From Bacteroidales bacterium (GTDB lineage Bacteria; Bacteroidota; Bacteroidia; Bacteroidales; UBA932), in the NCBI GenBank assembly GCA_017509755.1, contig JAFWOY010000040.1:1-64000 (forward strand): DNA of 64,000 bases, given 5' to 3'. Made by a program: the position numbers and the translations under genes. Position 1 is the first letter of the stretch. Each line of letters opens with the position of its first letter. The notes below the pieces were generated by a model. It was not told the origin of the DNA. It was given only the letters and a program-made list of their open reading frames with translations, and did not search any database. Positions 50,471 to 64,000 of this stretch are shown in pieces.

Positions 50471-51967
50471 TTATAGTTTTGCTCCATATTTGGCCAGTTC
50501 TTCCAGGAAGCCCTCGACCTTGGGCATCATCCGGCTCGTCGGGGCGTCGTAGTTGTTGAGCATGATGGCGAAGCGGATCAGCCCGCGCTGGGAATCAACA
50601 TACCCGGCATAGCAGCGCACATTCGAGAGCGAACCGCTCTTGGCATAGATGGTTTTCTTCAGTTCGGGATCAGCGTTATTGAGCACGGTCCGGAGCGTGC
50701 CAGGCCGGCCGGGGCCCGGAAAACTCGCGAGATACTCCTCGAAATCCGGATTTTCCGCCATCATCGCATAGAAACGCGTGAAGAAACGCGGGGATACGTA
50801 ATTCTGGCGGGAAAGGCCGCTGCCATCATCCTGTGTATAGCCGTAGGTGGAAACGCCCTTCTCCTTGAGATACTCCTTGATGACATGACTGGCACGGCCA
50901 TAAGTGATGCCGAGGAATTCCTGGCCGGTCTCCCGTTCCACCAGTTTTTTGCCGACCATCTTGAAGATGGTCTCGGCGAAGAAGTTGTTGCTGATGGTAT
51001 TGGTTACCTTGACAATCCGGCGAAGTTCGGGAGAGAAGGTTTCCGCGATATAGGTCAGGTCTTTCTGGGAAGGGGCGATGAAGTCGTACTCCATCTGGCG
51101 GATGTCGGAAACGCCTTTGCATCCGATGCCTTTCTTTTCACTGAGGAATCTGGCAAACTCGGCCGCGCAGGTCACCGGCCCGTATTTGTTGGACATGGCC
51201 AGCTTCCGGGGCTTGGCATCCACACCATAGGTCCCGACAAATTTGCCGACCGTTGCGATACTTGAAGCGTAATACTCCGTATTGTCCCCGGATCCCCGCT
51301 TGCCGGTAATGGCTTCATTGATATAGGTAATGTAAGGAGACTGAGGTCCGAGCGGCGTGATGCGGACCGGATCGCCTTCCGACAGGCCGGCCTCGATCTG
51401 GAAAAGACTCTGGTTCTCACAGAACGACAATCCGGAGGTACCGCTGCCCCAGTCGTAGCCGATATTGCCGTAGGCCCAGCTCGCGGGAATGTTCTCTTCT
51501 TCAAAGATCCGGTCATCCCCGATGATGCGGCCTTTGATGCGGCGGATGCCGGCTTTCTGAACAGCCTTGGCCCAGACGCCGAAGATTGAATCTATCGGGA
51601 ATGCGATCGTATCCCGGGAGCCAAGCGTCGGATCGGCGCCGCCGACGATATACAGGTTGCCGTTGAGCACCCCATCGACGATCTTGCCGTCATACGCAAT
51701 CCGGGTGGAGAACCGGTAACCGGGGCCGAGGACTTCATAGCCAAGGCCCGTCGTGATGGTTTTCATCGTCGATGCCGTCAGCAACGGCATATCCGGATTC
51801 CAGGAAGCGATCTCCCGGCCGTCAGCGTCAACGGCGAGGATACCGACCACAGCGTTGATCAGCAGCGAGTCAGTCTTCATCTGCCGGTCTATGTAATTCT
51901 GGACACGATTCTGGCCGAAACCCATCAACGGGATGAGCACCAGGGCCATTAGAAAATGCTTTTTCAT
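50471..51967 (-). CDS. dacB: D-alanyl-D-alanine carboxypeptidase, PBP4 / DacB type (S13)
   Basis: 498 residues with a signal peptide. Penicillin-binding protein motifs are visible: Ser66-x-x-Lys69 (STMK), SNN in TISNNFFAE and KSG in IYAKSGSLSNVR. PBP4 enzymes remove the terminal D-Ala from murein stem peptides or open cross-links in the periplasm. It is the first gene of the minus-strand series, with its promoter at 51989-52020. Confidence 0.93.
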   Translation of the reverse strand: MKKHFLMALVLIPLMGFGQNRVQNYIDRQMKTDSLLINAVVGILAVDADGREIASWNPDMPLLTASTMKTITTGLGYEVLGPGYRFSTRIAYDGKIVDGVLNGNLYIVGGADPTLGSRDTIAFPIDSIFGVWAKAVQKAGIRRIKGRIIGDDRIFEEENIPASWAYGNIGYDWGSGTSGLSFCENQSLFQIEAGLSEGDPVRITPLGPQSPYITYINEAITGKRGSGDNTEYYASSIATVGKFVGTYGVDAKPRKLAMSNKYGPVTCAAEFARFLSEKKGIGCKGVSDIRQMEYDFIAPSQKDLTYIAETFSPELRRIVKVTNTISNNFFAETIFKMVGKKLVERETGQEFLGITYGRASHVIKEYLKEKGVSTYGYTQDDGSGLSRQNYVSPRFFTRFYAMMAENPDFEEYLASFPGPGRPGTLRTVLNNADPELKKTIYAKSGSLSNVRCYAGYVDSQRGLIRFAIMLNNYDAPTSRMMPKVEGFLEELAKYGAKL

Positions 51968-52023: not shown

Positions 52024-53526
52024 ATGCTGAACAGGTTTTCGCTCTCCGGACTCGTCGCCGCCCTGTTGCTCCTGCTGCTTTTTCCGGCAGGTTGCCGCAA
52101 GATAGAAATACCGGTCGACAATATGGCTGTCGTCAACAAGGCACTTTATGACACGGCCTCCAATTTCTATGTCGAATTCAATGAATACCCCAACGAGATG
52201 CGCAGTCTTCCCATCGGGGTTTTCGATTCGGGAACCGGCGGACTGACTGTACTCGAGAAACTGCTCAGCCTCGACCACTTCGACAACATCACCGGGCTGG
52301 AAGGCCGCGACAGCATCCTGGATTTTGCGGGCGAGCATTTCGTCTATCTGGCCGACCAGGCCAATATGCCCTACGGCAACTATGACGCCGAAGGCAACAG
52401 CGAATACCTGCGGGAACTCGCCTTGAAAGACGCGCTCTTCCTGCTGGACGACGACTATTTCGCCAACGCTATCGAGGAAACGCCCACGGGCCGGAAACCC
52501 CGGGCCAAGATCATTGTCGTGGCTTGCAACACGGCTACCGCCTATGCGCTCGACCTGATCAAGTCGATGCTTGAACAGACACATACCGGAGTCAAGGTGA
52601 TCGGTGTGATCAATGCCGGCGTGACCGCCACGCTCGACGAGCTGGATCTCAAAGGCAATGAAGCGCCCTTCGCCATCGGCGTGCTGGCTACGCCCGGCAC
52701 CATCGCGTCCGGCGCGTATGAACGGACCCTCCGCGAAGAACTGGCCGCCCGCGGCATCGCCACGACGGTAGATATCGTCAACCAGAGCGGCTACGGATTC
52801 GCCGAAGCCGTGGATTCCGATCCCGACTACGTCAATCCCCTCCTCTTCGCCCCGCGTGCCGGCTACCGCGGCCCGGCACTCGGTGAGTCCGACGGCAGCA
52901 TCCGCCAGGAGCTGCTGAAAGCATACAATTTCGATTTCACCGAGAACCGGATGCTGGCCCGCCGCAGCCCTGCCGGCGGCTATGCGTCCCTCCAACTCAA
53001 CAGCGCCGAAAACTATGCGCGTTTCAACATGGTCTCGCTGCTGGAGCGCCACCGTCAGAGCGGCAAGGGCACTCCGATCCGCGCAATCATCCTGGGCTGC
53101 ACCCATTATCCTTTCCACCTGGAGACCCTCAATGAGACCCTGGCCGAACTCCGGGAATACCGCGAGGACGGACGCTACCCGTATCGCGACCTGATCGCCG
53201 ACGAGATCACCTTCATCGATCCGGCGGTCTATACGGCCATCGAATGCTACAATACCCTGCGCGAAGACGGCAACCTGGCGTACCGCATCACGCCCACCAA
53301 GGTTGAAGCCTATATTTCCGTACCCAGCAACCTGCTCGAAGACGAATACCTGACCCAGGAAGGCCTCCTCACCCACGAATTCAAGTACGGACGCAAGACC
53401 GGCACCGAAGACCAGACCACCAAACAGGTTCCTTTTTCCCACAACAACCTGGACCAGAACAACCTGAAACGGATCGAGGAACTCCTGCCCTACACCTACG
53501 CGCTGATCGCCCCTACCCTCCGCTAG
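52024..53526 (+). CDS. Exported lipoprotein homologous to glutamate racemase
   Basis: 500 residues, nearly twice the usual MurI length. The N-terminus is a lipoprotein signal (hydrophobic run, then PAGC, Cys24). The Asp/Glu racemase core is conserved: GVFDSGTGGLT at 65-75, the first catalytic cysteine Cys168 in ACNTAT and the second, Cys359, in LGCTHYP. The extra length comes from insertions (about 90-105, 265-320) and a C-terminal extension. MurI makes D-Glu in the cytoplasm for murein synthesis. An envelope-anchored version cannot do that directly. Divergence from a murein-use locus suggests converting D-Glu from murein peptides to L-Glu, which is inference. I chose the ATG at 52024; an upstream TTG lies inside the promoter palindrome. 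Confidence 0.8.
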   Translation: MLNRFSLSGLVAALLLLLLFPAGCRKIEIPVDNMAVVNKALYDTASNFYVEFNEYPNEMRSLPIGVFDSGTGGLTVLEKLLSLDHFDNITGLEGRDSILDFAGEHFVYLADQANMPYGNYDAEGNSEYLRELALKDALFLLDDDYFANAIEETPTGRKPRAKIIVVACNTATAYALDLIKSMLEQTHTGVKVIGVINAGVTATLDELDLKGNEAPFAIGVLATPGTIASGAYERTLREELAARGIATTVDIVNQSGYGFAEAVDSDPDYVNPLLFAPRAGYRGPALGESDGSIRQELLKAYNFDFTENRMLARRSPAGGYASLQLNSAENYARFNMVSLLERHRQSGKGTPIRAIILGCTHYPFHLETLNETLAELREYREDGRYPYRDLIADEITFIDPAVYTAIECYNTLREDGNLAYRITPTKVEAYISVPSNLLEDEYLTQEGLLTHEFKYGRKTGTEDQTTKQVPFSHNNLDQNNLKRIEELLPYTYALIAPTLR

Positions 53527-53527
53527 C

Positions 53528-54115
53528 ATGTTTCAAGAGACCATTACGCCTGAAGAGATAGAACAGATGGAACTGGCTGCCTTCCCCGGCAGCATCCACG
53601 TCATCACCGGTCCCGGCCATGAACTCGACTACGCCGTCGCGCACCTTTCCGCCCAGCGTTTCATCGGCTTCGATACCGAGACGAAACCAGTCTTCCAAGC
53701 CCATCAACCCCGGAACCATACGGCGCTGCTGCAACTCTCCAGCGAGACGGAAGCCTTCCTTTTCCGCCTGCGGGAACTCGGCTTGCCGCAAGCCGTGGCC
53801 GACATCATGGCCAATCCCCATATCACCAAGATCGGTGCCGCCATCTATGAAGATATCCACGGACTGCAGTACTATTGTTCCTTCGAGCCGCACCGCTTCA
53901 TGGACCTCCAGTCCTTCGGCGGCCAGTTCGGCATCAAGGAAAAGAGCGTCCGCAAGATGGCCGCCATCATCCTCGGCCAGAAAGTTTCCAAGGCACAGCA
54001 GTGTTCCAACTGGGAGGCCGAACCTCTTTCAGACGCCCAGCAGCTCTACGCCGCCACAGATGCCTGGATCTGTGTCAAAATGTACAAAGCCCTGCTTGCC
54101 TCTCCGCGCCCATGA
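53528..54115 (+). CDS. DEDD-family 3'-5' exonuclease (RNase D-like)
   Basis: 195 residues. Exonuclease motifs: FIGFDTET (Exo I, DxE), an Exo II aspartate in AAIYEDIH and a C-terminal YAATDAWICVKMY (Exo III, Y-x3-D, DEDDy type). There is no HRDC domain, so it is a minimal exonuclease rather than full RNase D. It begins one base after the racemase stop and overlaps rlmI by four bases. Confidence 0.88.
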   Translation: MFQETITPEEIEQMELAAFPGSIHVITGPGHELDYAVAHLSAQRFIGFDTETKPVFQAHQPRNHTALLQLSSETEAFLFRLRELGLPQAVADIMANPHITKIGAAIYEDIHGLQYYCSFEPHRFMDLQSFGGQFGIKEKSVRKMAAIILGQKVSKAQQCSNWEAEPLSDAQQLYAATDAWICVKMYKALLASPRP

Positions 54116-59703: not shown

Positions 59704-61080
59704 ATGACCTTCACCATGATTATTGAGCTGCTGATCGTCCTGGCAGCACTCTATGTGGGCTCCCGGTATGGTTCGCTGGCACTCGGCGCCATTTCGGGCA
59801 TCGGACTGGCCATCCTCGTTTTCGGTTTCGGCCTCAAGCCGGGTACACCCCCGACCGACGTCATCTATATCATCATCGCCGCCGTTACTTGCGCGGGTAC
59901 GCTGCAGGCCTCAGGCGGTATGGACTGGATGATCCAGATTGCCGAAAAGATGCTCCGCAAGCATCCGGAGCATATCACCTTCCTCGGCCCGCTGGTGACG
60001 TTCTTCCTCACCGTTCTCGTGGGAACCGGTCACGTGGTTTATACCGTGATGCCGATCATCTGCGACATCGCCCTGAAAAAGAATATCCGGCCGGAACGTC
60101 CCTGCGCCGTCTCTTCCATCGCTTCGCAAGTCGGTATCACCTGCTCCCCCATCGCCGCCGCGGTCGTCGCATTCGTCACGATTTCCAACGCCAACGGCTA
60201 CATGGTCACCATCCCGCAAGTACTGATGGTCACCATCCCAGCCTGCCTCTGCGGCCTGATGTGCGCAGCCCTGGCTTCTTACAAACGGGGTAAGGACCTC
60301 GACAAGGATCCGGAGTTCATCCGCCGCAAATCCGATCCCGAGCAGTATGCCTACATGTACGGCAACAGCGCCACAACGCTCGACAAGGTCATCACCAAGG
60401 AAGCGAAAGCTTCTGTCTTCGTATTCCTGGGTTCCCTGCTGATCATCGTGGCCTTCGCTTTCTGCCAGATGATCCATTTGGCAGACGGACGCTCCGTAGC
60501 CGAATCCATCTCCCTGCCGAAGATGAACATCTGCATCCAGATCATCATGCTGATGGCTGCGGCCGCCAACATTATGTTCTGCAAGGCGTCACCCAAGAAA
60601 GCCGTGGCCGGCGCCGTCTGGCAGTCCGGCATGGTGGCCGTTGTGGCCATCTACGGCATCGCCTGGCTGGCCGACACCTATTTCGGCAACTACATGGAAG
60701 AGATGAAATCCATGCTGACCGGCCTTGTCACCCACTATCCCTGGGCCATCGCTTTTGTCTTCTTCATCGTCTCCGTGCTCATCAACTCGCAAGGGGCCGT
60801 AGTGGTAGCCATGCTGCCGCTGGCTTATGAACTGGGGATTGCCGGGCCCGTGCTGCTCGGCGTGCTTCCCAGCGTGTATGGCTATTTCTTCATCCCGAAC
60901 TACCCGTCGGATATCGCAACGGTCAACTTCGACCGTTCCGGCACGACCGTCATCGGAAAATACCTGCTCAACCACAGTTTCATGATGCCAGGCCTGATCT
61001 GCGTCGCTGTCTCGACGATTATCGGCTATCTGATGACCAACGTCCTGTTTGCCGGCTATTTCGCGAGTTTCATCCACTGA
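59704..61080 (+). CDS. dcuB: Anaerobic C4-dicarboxylate transporter, DcuA/DcuB family
   Basis: 458 residues with about ten to twelve membrane segments. Family features: LAALYVGSRYGSLALGAISGIGLAILVF, SSIASQVGITCSPIAAAVVAF and the C-terminal FFIPNYPSDIATVNFDRSGTT. These carriers exchange fumarate, malate, aspartate and succinate during fumarate respiration. DcuA and DcuB cannot be separated with certainty. The histidine-breakdown genes follow 24 bases later, so aspartate or other dicarboxylate exchange may be coupled to amino acid catabolism. Confidence 0.9.
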   Translation: MTFTMIIELLIVLAALYVGSRYGSLALGAISGIGLAILVFGFGLKPGTPPTDVIYIIIAAVTCAGTLQASGGMDWMIQIAEKMLRKHPEHITFLGPLVTFFLTVLVGTGHVVYTVMPIICDIALKKNIRPERPCAVSSIASQVGITCSPIAAAVVAFVTISNANGYMVTIPQVLMVTIPACLCGLMCAALASYKRGKDLDKDPEFIRRKSDPEQYAYMYGNSATTLDKVITKEAKASVFVFLGSLLIIVAFAFCQMIHLADGRSVAESISLPKMNICIQIIMLMAAAANIMFCKASPKKAVAGAVWQSGMVAVVAIYGIAWLADTYFGNYMEEMKSMLTGLVTHYPWAIAFVFFIVSVLINSQGAVVVAMLPLAYELGIAGPVLLGVLPSVYGYFFIPNYPSDIATVNFDRSGTTVIGKYLLNHSFMMPGLICVAVSTIIGYLMTNVLFAGYFASFIH

Positions 61081-61104
61081 TGAATCCTACATAAAACCCA
61101 TTAT

Positions 61105-62814
61105 ATGAAACAAATTGTCGAATGTGTCCCCAACTACAGTGAGGGACGCGATAAATCTGTTATTGACAGCATTGTGGCCGCCATCGCATCAGTCGAGGGC
61201 GTCAAAGTACTGGACGTCGATCCGGGCGTAGCCACCCACCGTACTGTCGTCACTTTCGTGGGAGAACCTGCCGCCGTATGCGAAGCCGCTTTCCGCGGCT
61301 CGGCCAAGGCCCAGGAGCTCATTGACATGCGACACCATCACGGAGCCCATCCCCGCTCGGGCGCCACGGACGTGCTTCCGCTTATCCCCGTGGCCGGTAT
61401 CACCCTGGAAGAATGCGCTTCGCTGGCAAGAGAGCTGGCGAAGCGTCTTTATGAAGAGTTGGGCATTCCGTGCTACTGTTATGAAGCCGCTGCCTACAAG
61501 CCTGAACGCAAGAACCTGGCCGTGTGCCGGGCCGGTGAATATGAGGCCCTGCCCGAGAAGATGGCCGATCCGGCGCGTCGCCCTGATTTCGGCCCGGATT
61601 GCTACAACGACACGGTGGCCCGCTGCGGCGCCACCAATGTGGGCGCCCGCAATTTCCTGGTGGCCGTGAACTACAACCTCAACACTACCTCGACCCGCCG
61701 CGCCATGGCCATTGCCTTCGACGTACGTGAAAAAGGCCGCAAGGCCCGCGAAGGCGGATCGCTGACCGGCAAGTTGCTGAAGGACGAAAACGGCGAACAG
61801 ATCTGGATTCCCGGCACGCTCAAGGGCTGCAAAGCCATCGGCTGGTATATCGATGAATATGGCATCGCCCAGGTATCGATGAACATCACCGACATTGAGG
61901 CGACGCCTCTTCATGTGGCCTATGAGGAAGTATCCCGGGCCGCCGCAGCGCGCGGGCTCCGCGTGACCGGCGCCGAAATTGTCGGCCTGGTCCCGAAAAA
62001 AGTGCTGCTCGAAGCGGGCAAATTCTATCTGGCCCGTCAGCAGCGTTCGCTGGGTATCGATGAAAGCGAGATCCTGAAGATTGCCGTCAAATCGATGTCG
62101 CTCGACGATCTCAAGCCATTCAATCCTAAAGAAAAAGTCATTGAATTCCTGATGCAGGACGAAGCGGAAGAGGCAGCCAAGCATAGGCTCGTCCGGATGA
62201 CTGCGGAAGGTTTCGCCCGCGAAACGGCGTCCGAATCACCCGCCCCGGGCGGCGGTTCGATTTCCGCGTACATGGGTGCTCTTTCAGCTGCACTCGGTAC
62301 GATGGTAGCCAATCTCTCTGCCCACAAACGCGGCTGGGATGACCGTTGGAAAGAATTCTCCGATGTGGCTGAGAAAGGCCAGGCCCTGATGCAGGAACTT
62401 CTTGACCTTGTGGACGAAGATACAGCCGCTTTCGACCGCATCATGGCCTGCTTCGGCATGCCGAAGGGGACTGAGGAAGAGAAGGCTGCCCGTGCTGCCG
62501 CGATTGAAGAGGCCACGCTCTATGCCGCTTCCGTGCCCCTCAAGACTATGGAAGCTTCCCTGAAGGCGCTTCCGCTGGCACTTGAAATGGCCCGCAAGGG
62601 CAATCCGGCCTCCGCATCCGACGCCGGGGTAGCCGCCCTGGCCGCCCGCGCTGCCTGCCGTGGTGCCGAACTCAATGTGCGCATCAATGCTTCCGGCTTG
62701 AAAGACAAAGCCCCGGCCGCGCCGCTCATCGCCCGTGCCGCCGCCATCCTGAAAGAGGCGGAAGCCCTGGAAGCAGAAGTACTGACCGCTGTTAACGGAC
62801 ACATTGAAAGCTAG
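61105..62814 (+). CDS. ftcD: Bifunctional glutamate formimidoyltransferase / formimidoyl-THF cyclodeaminase
   Basis: 569 residues, the full two-enzyme form. The N-terminal transferase (about 1-325) has VECVPNYSEGRD, HRTVVTFVG and HHHGAHPRSGATDVLPLIP. The C-terminal cyclodeaminase (about 345-569) has SPAPGGGSISAYMGALSAALGTMVANL. It transfers the formimino group of formiminoglutamate from histidine to tetrahydrofolate and yields glutamate. It stands directly before hutU in the operon. Confidence 0.95.
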   Translation: MKQIVECVPNYSEGRDKSVIDSIVAAIASVEGVKVLDVDPGVATHRTVVTFVGEPAAVCEAAFRGSAKAQELIDMRHHHGAHPRSGATDVLPLIPVAGITLEECASLARELAKRLYEELGIPCYCYEAAAYKPERKNLAVCRAGEYEALPEKMADPARRPDFGPDCYNDTVARCGATNVGARNFLVAVNYNLNTTSTRRAMAIAFDVREKGRKAREGGSLTGKLLKDENGEQIWIPGTLKGCKAIGWYIDEYGIAQVSMNITDIEATPLHVAYEEVSRAAAARGLRVTGAEIVGLVPKKVLLEAGKFYLARQQRSLGIDESEILKIAVKSMSLDDLKPFNPKEKVIEFLMQDEAEEAAKHRLVRMTAEGFARETASESPAPGGGSISAYMGALSAALGTMVANLSAHKRGWDDRWKEFSDVAEKGQALMQELLDLVDEDTAAFDRIMACFGMPKGTEEEKAARAAAIEEATLYAASVPLKTMEASLKALPLALEMARKGNPASASDAGVAALAARAACRGAELNVRINASGLKDKAPAAPLIARAAAILKEAEALEAEVLTAVNGHIES

Positions 62815-62819
62815 CAGCC

Positions 62820-64000
<1,181 letters not shown>

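Follow-up and report, generated by a model that had tools for sequence, protein, structure and literature searches.

Within the 64,000-nucleotide stretch of DNA analysed here (the window), from a gut bacterium of the Bacteroidales, the gene at 52,024-53,526 on the forward strand probably specifies a glutamate racemase that needs no cofactor and is exported and anchored to the membrane; this enzyme would turn D-glutamate (D-Glu) freed outside the cytoplasm into importable L-glutamate (L-Glu). We infer its activity, substrate and direction of flux from sequence, predicted structure and the gene partners of relatives. Whether it also belongs to a new subfamily of extracytoplasmic cofactor-independent racemases that front a racemising glutamate importer for D-Glu from peptidoglycan or other D-Glu polymers, in some species as one racemase-symporter polypeptide, we judge to be an even question. 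The protein is real and unusual, a known kind of enzyme in a new form, for which a new role is plausible. No prior report of an exported or lipoprotein glutamate racemase was found in open-licence PMC texts, a scope outside which most subscription journals fall.

A MurI-like protein with a full active site

The gene has an ATG start, encodes 500 amino acids followed by a stop codon, and is backed by profile matches and orthologues. Its product contains, all on the plus strand, GVFDSGTGG (residues 65-73; 52,216-52,242) with catalytic Asp68 and Ser69, the substrate motif ANMPYG (113-118, within ADQANMPYG; 52,360-52,377), ACNTAT (167-172; 52,522-52,539) with the first catalytic cysteine, Cys168, and GCTHYP (358-363; 53,095-53,112) with the second, Cys359, and His361. 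Both cysteine motifs and GVFDSGTGG had been picked out in a sequence-only reading of this DNA, and all are found in the open reading frame. Glu261 (52,804-52,806, plus strand), the counterpart of the MurI active-site glutamate, is a glutamate in 84 of 88 intact members. The MurI catalytic set (D68, C168, E261, C359 and H361) is complete in the window protein and invariant across an alignment of 18 relatives; of 104 non-redundant members, 88, the window protein included, retain D68, C168, C359 and H361 together.

Profile searches place the protein at some distance from canonical MurI. Pfam recovered PF01177 alone, at a marginal 31.7 bits against a cut-off of 31 (relatives fused to a transporter score 40.9-46 bits), and a PLP-dependent alanine-racemase domain of the BsrV type was not found by Pfam. 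The top NCBIfam models are glutamate racemases, with scores far under cut-off (81.4 versus 328 and 79.1 versus 146.65 bits), so that the protein falls below the curated equivalog cut-offs of the MurI models TIGR00067 and NF002035. A phmmer search of the PDB likewise matched glutamate racemases, the best at 6.6e-14. An AlphaFold model built with 63 sequences reached a pLDDT of 92.6 and a pTM of 0.88. In a structure search with this model, all 46 PDB matches at E<=1e-3 were glutamate racemases, the best being Bacillus subtilis RacE with D-Glu (TM 0.78 over the target). The window protein is thus predicted to have the glutamate-racemase fold. D-Asp, which had been raised as an alternative substrate, becomes less likely, as the aspartate racemase model TIGR00035 (asp_race) scores 20.3 bits against a cut-off of 93.1 and no aspartate racemase is among the 46 significant fold matches.

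The estimate of about 230 extra residues was borne out: the protein is 233 residues longer than the MurI of the same genome. Relative to MurI, the extra sequence comprises the signal and linker (residues 1-61), short insertions at about 83-104 and 143-160, and two large additions absent from MurI, namely a subfamily-specific insertion at about 265-330 (52,816-53,013, plus strand) and a C-terminal extension at about 437-500 (53,332-53,523, plus strand). Compared over 63 relatives, both large additions hold invariant residues; the insertion has invariant Y281, G283, P284, Y301, F303, Q324 and N326, and the extension has conserved K454, Y455, R457, P470, F471 and S472.

An export signal and a probable periplasm-facing position

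The N-terminus begins MLNRFSLSGLVAALLLLLLFPAGC. Residues 1-23 (MLNRFSLSGLVAALLLLLLFPAG; 52,024-52,092, plus strand) form a predicted signal peptide, and a signal or anchor is present in nearly all full-length orthologues. Cys24 (52,093-52,095, plus strand), the proposed lipidation site, is invariant in an alignment of relatives, and its column is a cysteine in 101 of 104 non-redundant members. The lipoprotein signal claimed in the sequence-only reading stands insofar as an export signal and Cys24 are present; its box (LFPAGC) is non-canonical, with an unusual proline at -3, while those of the orthologues are mostly canonical (LSSC, LAGC, LTGC and others). Lipidation of the window copy is therefore best described as presumptive. 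Members of the Prevotella branch carry Sec-type signals. One protein from the window's genus (L059:922-2406, minus strand) has an N-terminus that resembles a hydrophobic transmembrane anchor (LLIALLIVILIVRRCSS) and no classic lipobox.

Surface lipoproteins of Bacteroidota carry an acidic export signal (LES) of the K-(D/E)2 type after the cysteine (PMC5080379). The window protein instead has RKIEI after Cys24. Among 66 lipoboxes scored, 41 have no acidic residue at +2 to +6, and post-cysteine residues are mostly basic. Since the acidic surface-export signal is missing, the racemase more likely faces the periplasm than the cell surface.

The exported racemase is found alongside ordinary MurI

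A second, normal murI was sought in the same genome (46 contigs, 95% complete), and an ordinary cytoplasmic-type MurI of 267 amino acids was found near rpoC on contig C7; the proposition that the genome has no normal murI was thereby rejected. MurI of this ordinary (P0002-like) type occurs in at least 29 of 36 other genus genomes sampled. Because the genome has a separate ordinary MurI, the exported racemase appears to be an addition rather than the cell-wall biosynthetic enzyme. The genome's third PF01177 protein (L005:3153-3992, minus strand, on contig C31) is aspartate-racemase-like, with VTCNTAH and ACTELP motifs.

The exported racemase is near-universal in the genus, common in the family and sporadic across Bacteroidota. 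Full-length orthologues, 58-89% identical, occur in 32 of 37 genus genomes, the window genome counted; one further orthologue is cut by a contig end, and three other genomes hold degenerate relatives. A sample of the GTDB family gave a match in 182 of 249 genomes, about 71 of them near full length, the remainder being mostly weak and partial and largely from one sister genus (g26). Matches were found in 12 of 393 genomes of an order sample (family members included) and in 6 of 296 of a phylum sample. A scan of 84,980 genomes, from which the best 80 loci were kept, gave identities of 47-90%, and viral contigs yielded no relative.

In a phylogenetic tree, MurI and the exported racemases fall into different, cleanly separate clades; only this split was used, because degenerate members sit on long branches and leave the deeper branching order unreliable. 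Over 12 pairs, dN/dS was 0.06-0.11, which indicates purifying selection. By these sequence measures, the exported racemases constitute a distinct subfamily of long, exported proteins under purifying selection.

Not all members have kept the active site. Part of it is lost in about 15 of the 104 members, and catalytic residues or regions are missing from L063, L065, L067 and L068 (in the window's genus), L066, L165-L168 (sister genus g26), L170, L171, L172 and L175, most of which keep the signal and often the locus. Catalysis can therefore be claimed only for members with a full active site, among them the window protein. In the degenerate pair L067/L068, purifying selection persists (dN/dS 0.13), so such exported relatives may be functional pseudo-enzymes. 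In genome G043, the racemase (L066:7467-8402, minus strand) is without its middle part, including the first catalytic cysteine, and the neighbouring amidohydrolase (L066:6794-7294, minus strand) survives as a fragment, which looks like joint decay of the entire pathway.

Gene neighbourhoods in the window and in relatives

In the window, the racemase gene is flanked by a divergent Peptidase_S13 gene of the dacB/PBP4 type (50,471-51,967, minus strand; PF02113, 208.8 bits) and by a downstream 3'-5' exonuclease gene (53,528-54,115, plus strand; PF01612, 81.7 bits), which is conserved in synteny (cluster 0, 65 loci) with no obvious functional link. Other neighbours encode a class I aminotransferase and an RlmI-type methyltransferase, and sister genomes conserve the syntenic block together with glnN (glutamine synthetase III) and purM. 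Salvage of D-Glu had been suggested from the position next to dacB and the murein locus; as functional evidence we give dacB little weight: it lies near the racemase gene in only part of the relatives (40 loci), and the conserved synteny also includes the unrelated purM, glnN, exonuclease and methyltransferase genes. The block says little about racemase function and gives no direct link to uptake. Further along (59,704-64,000), the window holds a DcuA/DcuB-type transporter gene, then a formiminotransferase-cyclodeaminase (FtcD) gene, then a urocanate-hydratase-like open reading frame, which together look like a cluster for the use of histidine via glutamate, histidine-to-glutamate, 6 kb away from the racemase gene. 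A search of the organism's own genome for GltS found none, and two SDF-family symporters are present, so the importer used in this species is one that we infer. Genes for C26 and C69 proteins with signal-like N-termini lie elsewhere in the genome, away from the locus.

The relatives are more informative. Three independent Prevotella-type MAGs (L130, L137 and L143; rumen Prevotella) have a single open reading frame of 941-953 amino acids in which a Sec-type signal and the racemase are joined to a PF03616 domain of the Na+/glutamate symporter family (60-67 bits against a cut-off of 26); L138 shares this layout, its frame being interrupted. The fused domains are divergent PF03616 members, for which glutamate is a putative substrate. 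An assembly artefact was rejected as an explanation for the fusion, since the frames are continuous in three independent MAGs and a separate-gene version exists in L150 (Mediterranea). There, a symporter-family gene lies directly downstream, its product 68% identical to the fused domain; no NCBIfam model matched this protein. Canonical GltS (TIGR00210, 360 bits against a cut-off of 310.75) is encoded directly downstream in L139, and a homologue of it occupies the corresponding position in L134. By group, the gene that follows the exported racemase is of the GltS type in Mediterranea and in termite-gut Prevotellaceae. GltS-family genes are rare in this order, being present in 3 of 119 genomes.

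The operons of L130, L137 and L143 also encode Peptidase_C26 proteins of the gamma-glutamyl-hydrolase type and C69 dipeptidases, both with signal-like N-termini, and two Prevotella racemase operons include a 2-oxoacid:ferredoxin oxidoreductase. Around the racemase-symporter gene of L130, L137, L138 and L143 we observed C26, C69, BPL_N or AAT-type Ntn proteins and a KorAB-type oxidoreductase; by this gene content, the four operons look like a locus for D-glutamyl peptide utilisation.

In L226 and L177, the racemase gene directly adjoins one for a D-aminoacylase-like amidohydrolase (N-acyl-D-amino-acid deacylase type); three genes of the L226 locus overlap, each by a single base. These amidohydrolases score 193 (L226) and 219 bits (L177), under the cut-off of 340, against NF006560, which we take to be a D-glutamate deacylase model. 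The order in L230 is a NagK-like kinase, an AmpG-family permease, a NagZ-like GH3 protein fused to a serine hydrolase, and the racemase; the same GH3 protein is encoded upstream of the racemase in L229. An L-Ala-D/L-Glu-epimerase-like gene and a C69-type gene lie near the racemase in L176, and L227 has a D-amino-acid transaminase neighbour (276.3 against a cut-off of 277.45). Interpreted post hoc, and with several family assignments under curated NCBIfam cut-offs, the partner genes from several lineages point the same way. The idea of D-Glu salvage from stem peptides is thus largely upheld on new grounds, namely symporter fusion and adjacency and the murein-recycling and D-amino-acid operons of relatives, in place of dacB. 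In L161 (6132-8918, minus strand; the same as L127), the racemase domain follows a secreted SGNH/GDSL-hydrolase-like domain, judged by eye, in a frame of about 929 amino acids.

Discussion

In the mechanism that we propose, D-Glu would be freed outside the cytoplasm from peptidoglycan stem peptides, gamma-glutamyl peptides or N-acyl-D-Glu. The exported racemase would interconvert D-Glu and L-Glu there by the two-cysteine mechanism of MurI, and symporters would import L-Glu, such that uptake pulls the equilibrium from D to L and D-Glu becomes a usable source of carbon and nitrogen. For D-Glu auxotrophs of Escherichia coli and Vibrio fischeri at low D-Glu, wild-type GltS is insufficient and mutant gltS is needed (PMC12502697); since wild-type GltS handles D-Glu poorly, racemising ahead of uptake makes sense. 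An architectural precedent is the TAXI-GltS importer (BP0403 and Lachnospiraceae fusions; PMC12344293), where an extracytoplasmic L-Glu-binding lipoprotein-type domain is likewise fused N-terminally to GltS or encoded beside it; that partner binds L-Glu, whereas here the partner is a racemase-fold enzyme.

The exported racemase shares with MurI (TIGR00067; B. subtilis RacE, 1zuw) the fold, the two catalytic cysteines, the Asp, Glu and His residues, the PYG motif and presumably the chemistry. Unlike MurI, which has about 260-290 amino acids and no export signal, it has a signal and anchor, additional length and conserved insertions; it coexists with a normal MurI, scores far under MurI cut-offs, and has transporter and recycling partner genes. 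BsrV and BsrF (broad-spectrum) and RacK are periplasmic racemases, likewise exported from the cytoplasm. They depend on PLP, are of the alanine-racemase type, with a fold other than that of MurI, and make D-amino acids, whereas the window racemase probably consumes D-Glu. Another route from D-Glu or murein dipeptide to L-Glu is catabolism by L-Ala-D/L-Glu epimerase, for which a candidate gene lies near the L176 racemase, or by DgcN-DgcA. Those are cytoplasmic, enolase-superfamily enzymes; the window subfamily is predicted to be exported and cofactor-independent.

Other readings of the protein have to be weighed. The insertions might reshape the pocket of an exported MurI-fold racemase for another substrate, for example D-Asp, some other acidic D-amino acid or a gamma-D-glutamyl peptide. 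The many invariant positions of the extra residues, the DcuA_DcuB transporter 6 kb off and scores far under glutamate-racemase cut-offs would fit this, but the nearest models and folds are clearly those of glutamate racemase and L139 has canonical GltS as its next gene, and we think it unlikely. Racemisation is also reversible, and exported racemases producing wall D-amino acids exist in BsrV, BsrF and RacK (PMC12502697). With a D,D-carboxypeptidase gene adjoining the racemase, the enzyme could make D-Glu (or D-Asp) extracytoplasmically, either to edit peptidoglycan or for release as a D-amino acid, a role of the kind proposed for BsrV- and RacK-type periplasmic racemases. The relatives' partner genes lend this direction no support, being genes of uptake and degradation (symporter, D-aminoacylase-like, gamma-glutamyl hydrolase and AmpG/NagZ-like), and the periplasmic racemases known so far are generally known to be PLP enzymes of another fold; we hold it to be quite unlikely.

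That the protein is a former racemase now serving as a non-catalytic periplasmic binding or structural lipoprotein is suggested by relatives that lack catalytic residues and keep signal and locus, one pair of them under selection. The window copy and 87 other members retain the Asp, the His and the two cysteines, which makes this reading very unlikely. It is more improbable still that the hydrophobic N-terminus is not a working signal and the protein is a second cytoplasmic glutamate racemase. MurI enzymes are normally cytoplasmic and FPAGC is a non-canonical lipobox, but most orthologues have canonical lipoboxes, the Prevotella branch has Sec-type signals, and some relatives join the racemase domain to a symporter or, in L161, to a secreted SGNH-like domain.

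MurI is usually treated as a cytoplasmic cell-wall enzyme and antibacterial target. If our preferred reading of an exported, transporter-coupled racemase that consumes D-Glu is true, MurI annotation or inhibitor work in which these genes pass for ordinary glutamate racemases would need correction, and a new type of enzyme-transporter link would be added. Gut and environmental Bacteroidota would then have a direct means of feeding on D-Glu, which abounds in peptidoglycan yet is hard to import, and what becomes of the D-Glu released by cell-wall turnover in gut and rumen could be tested directly.
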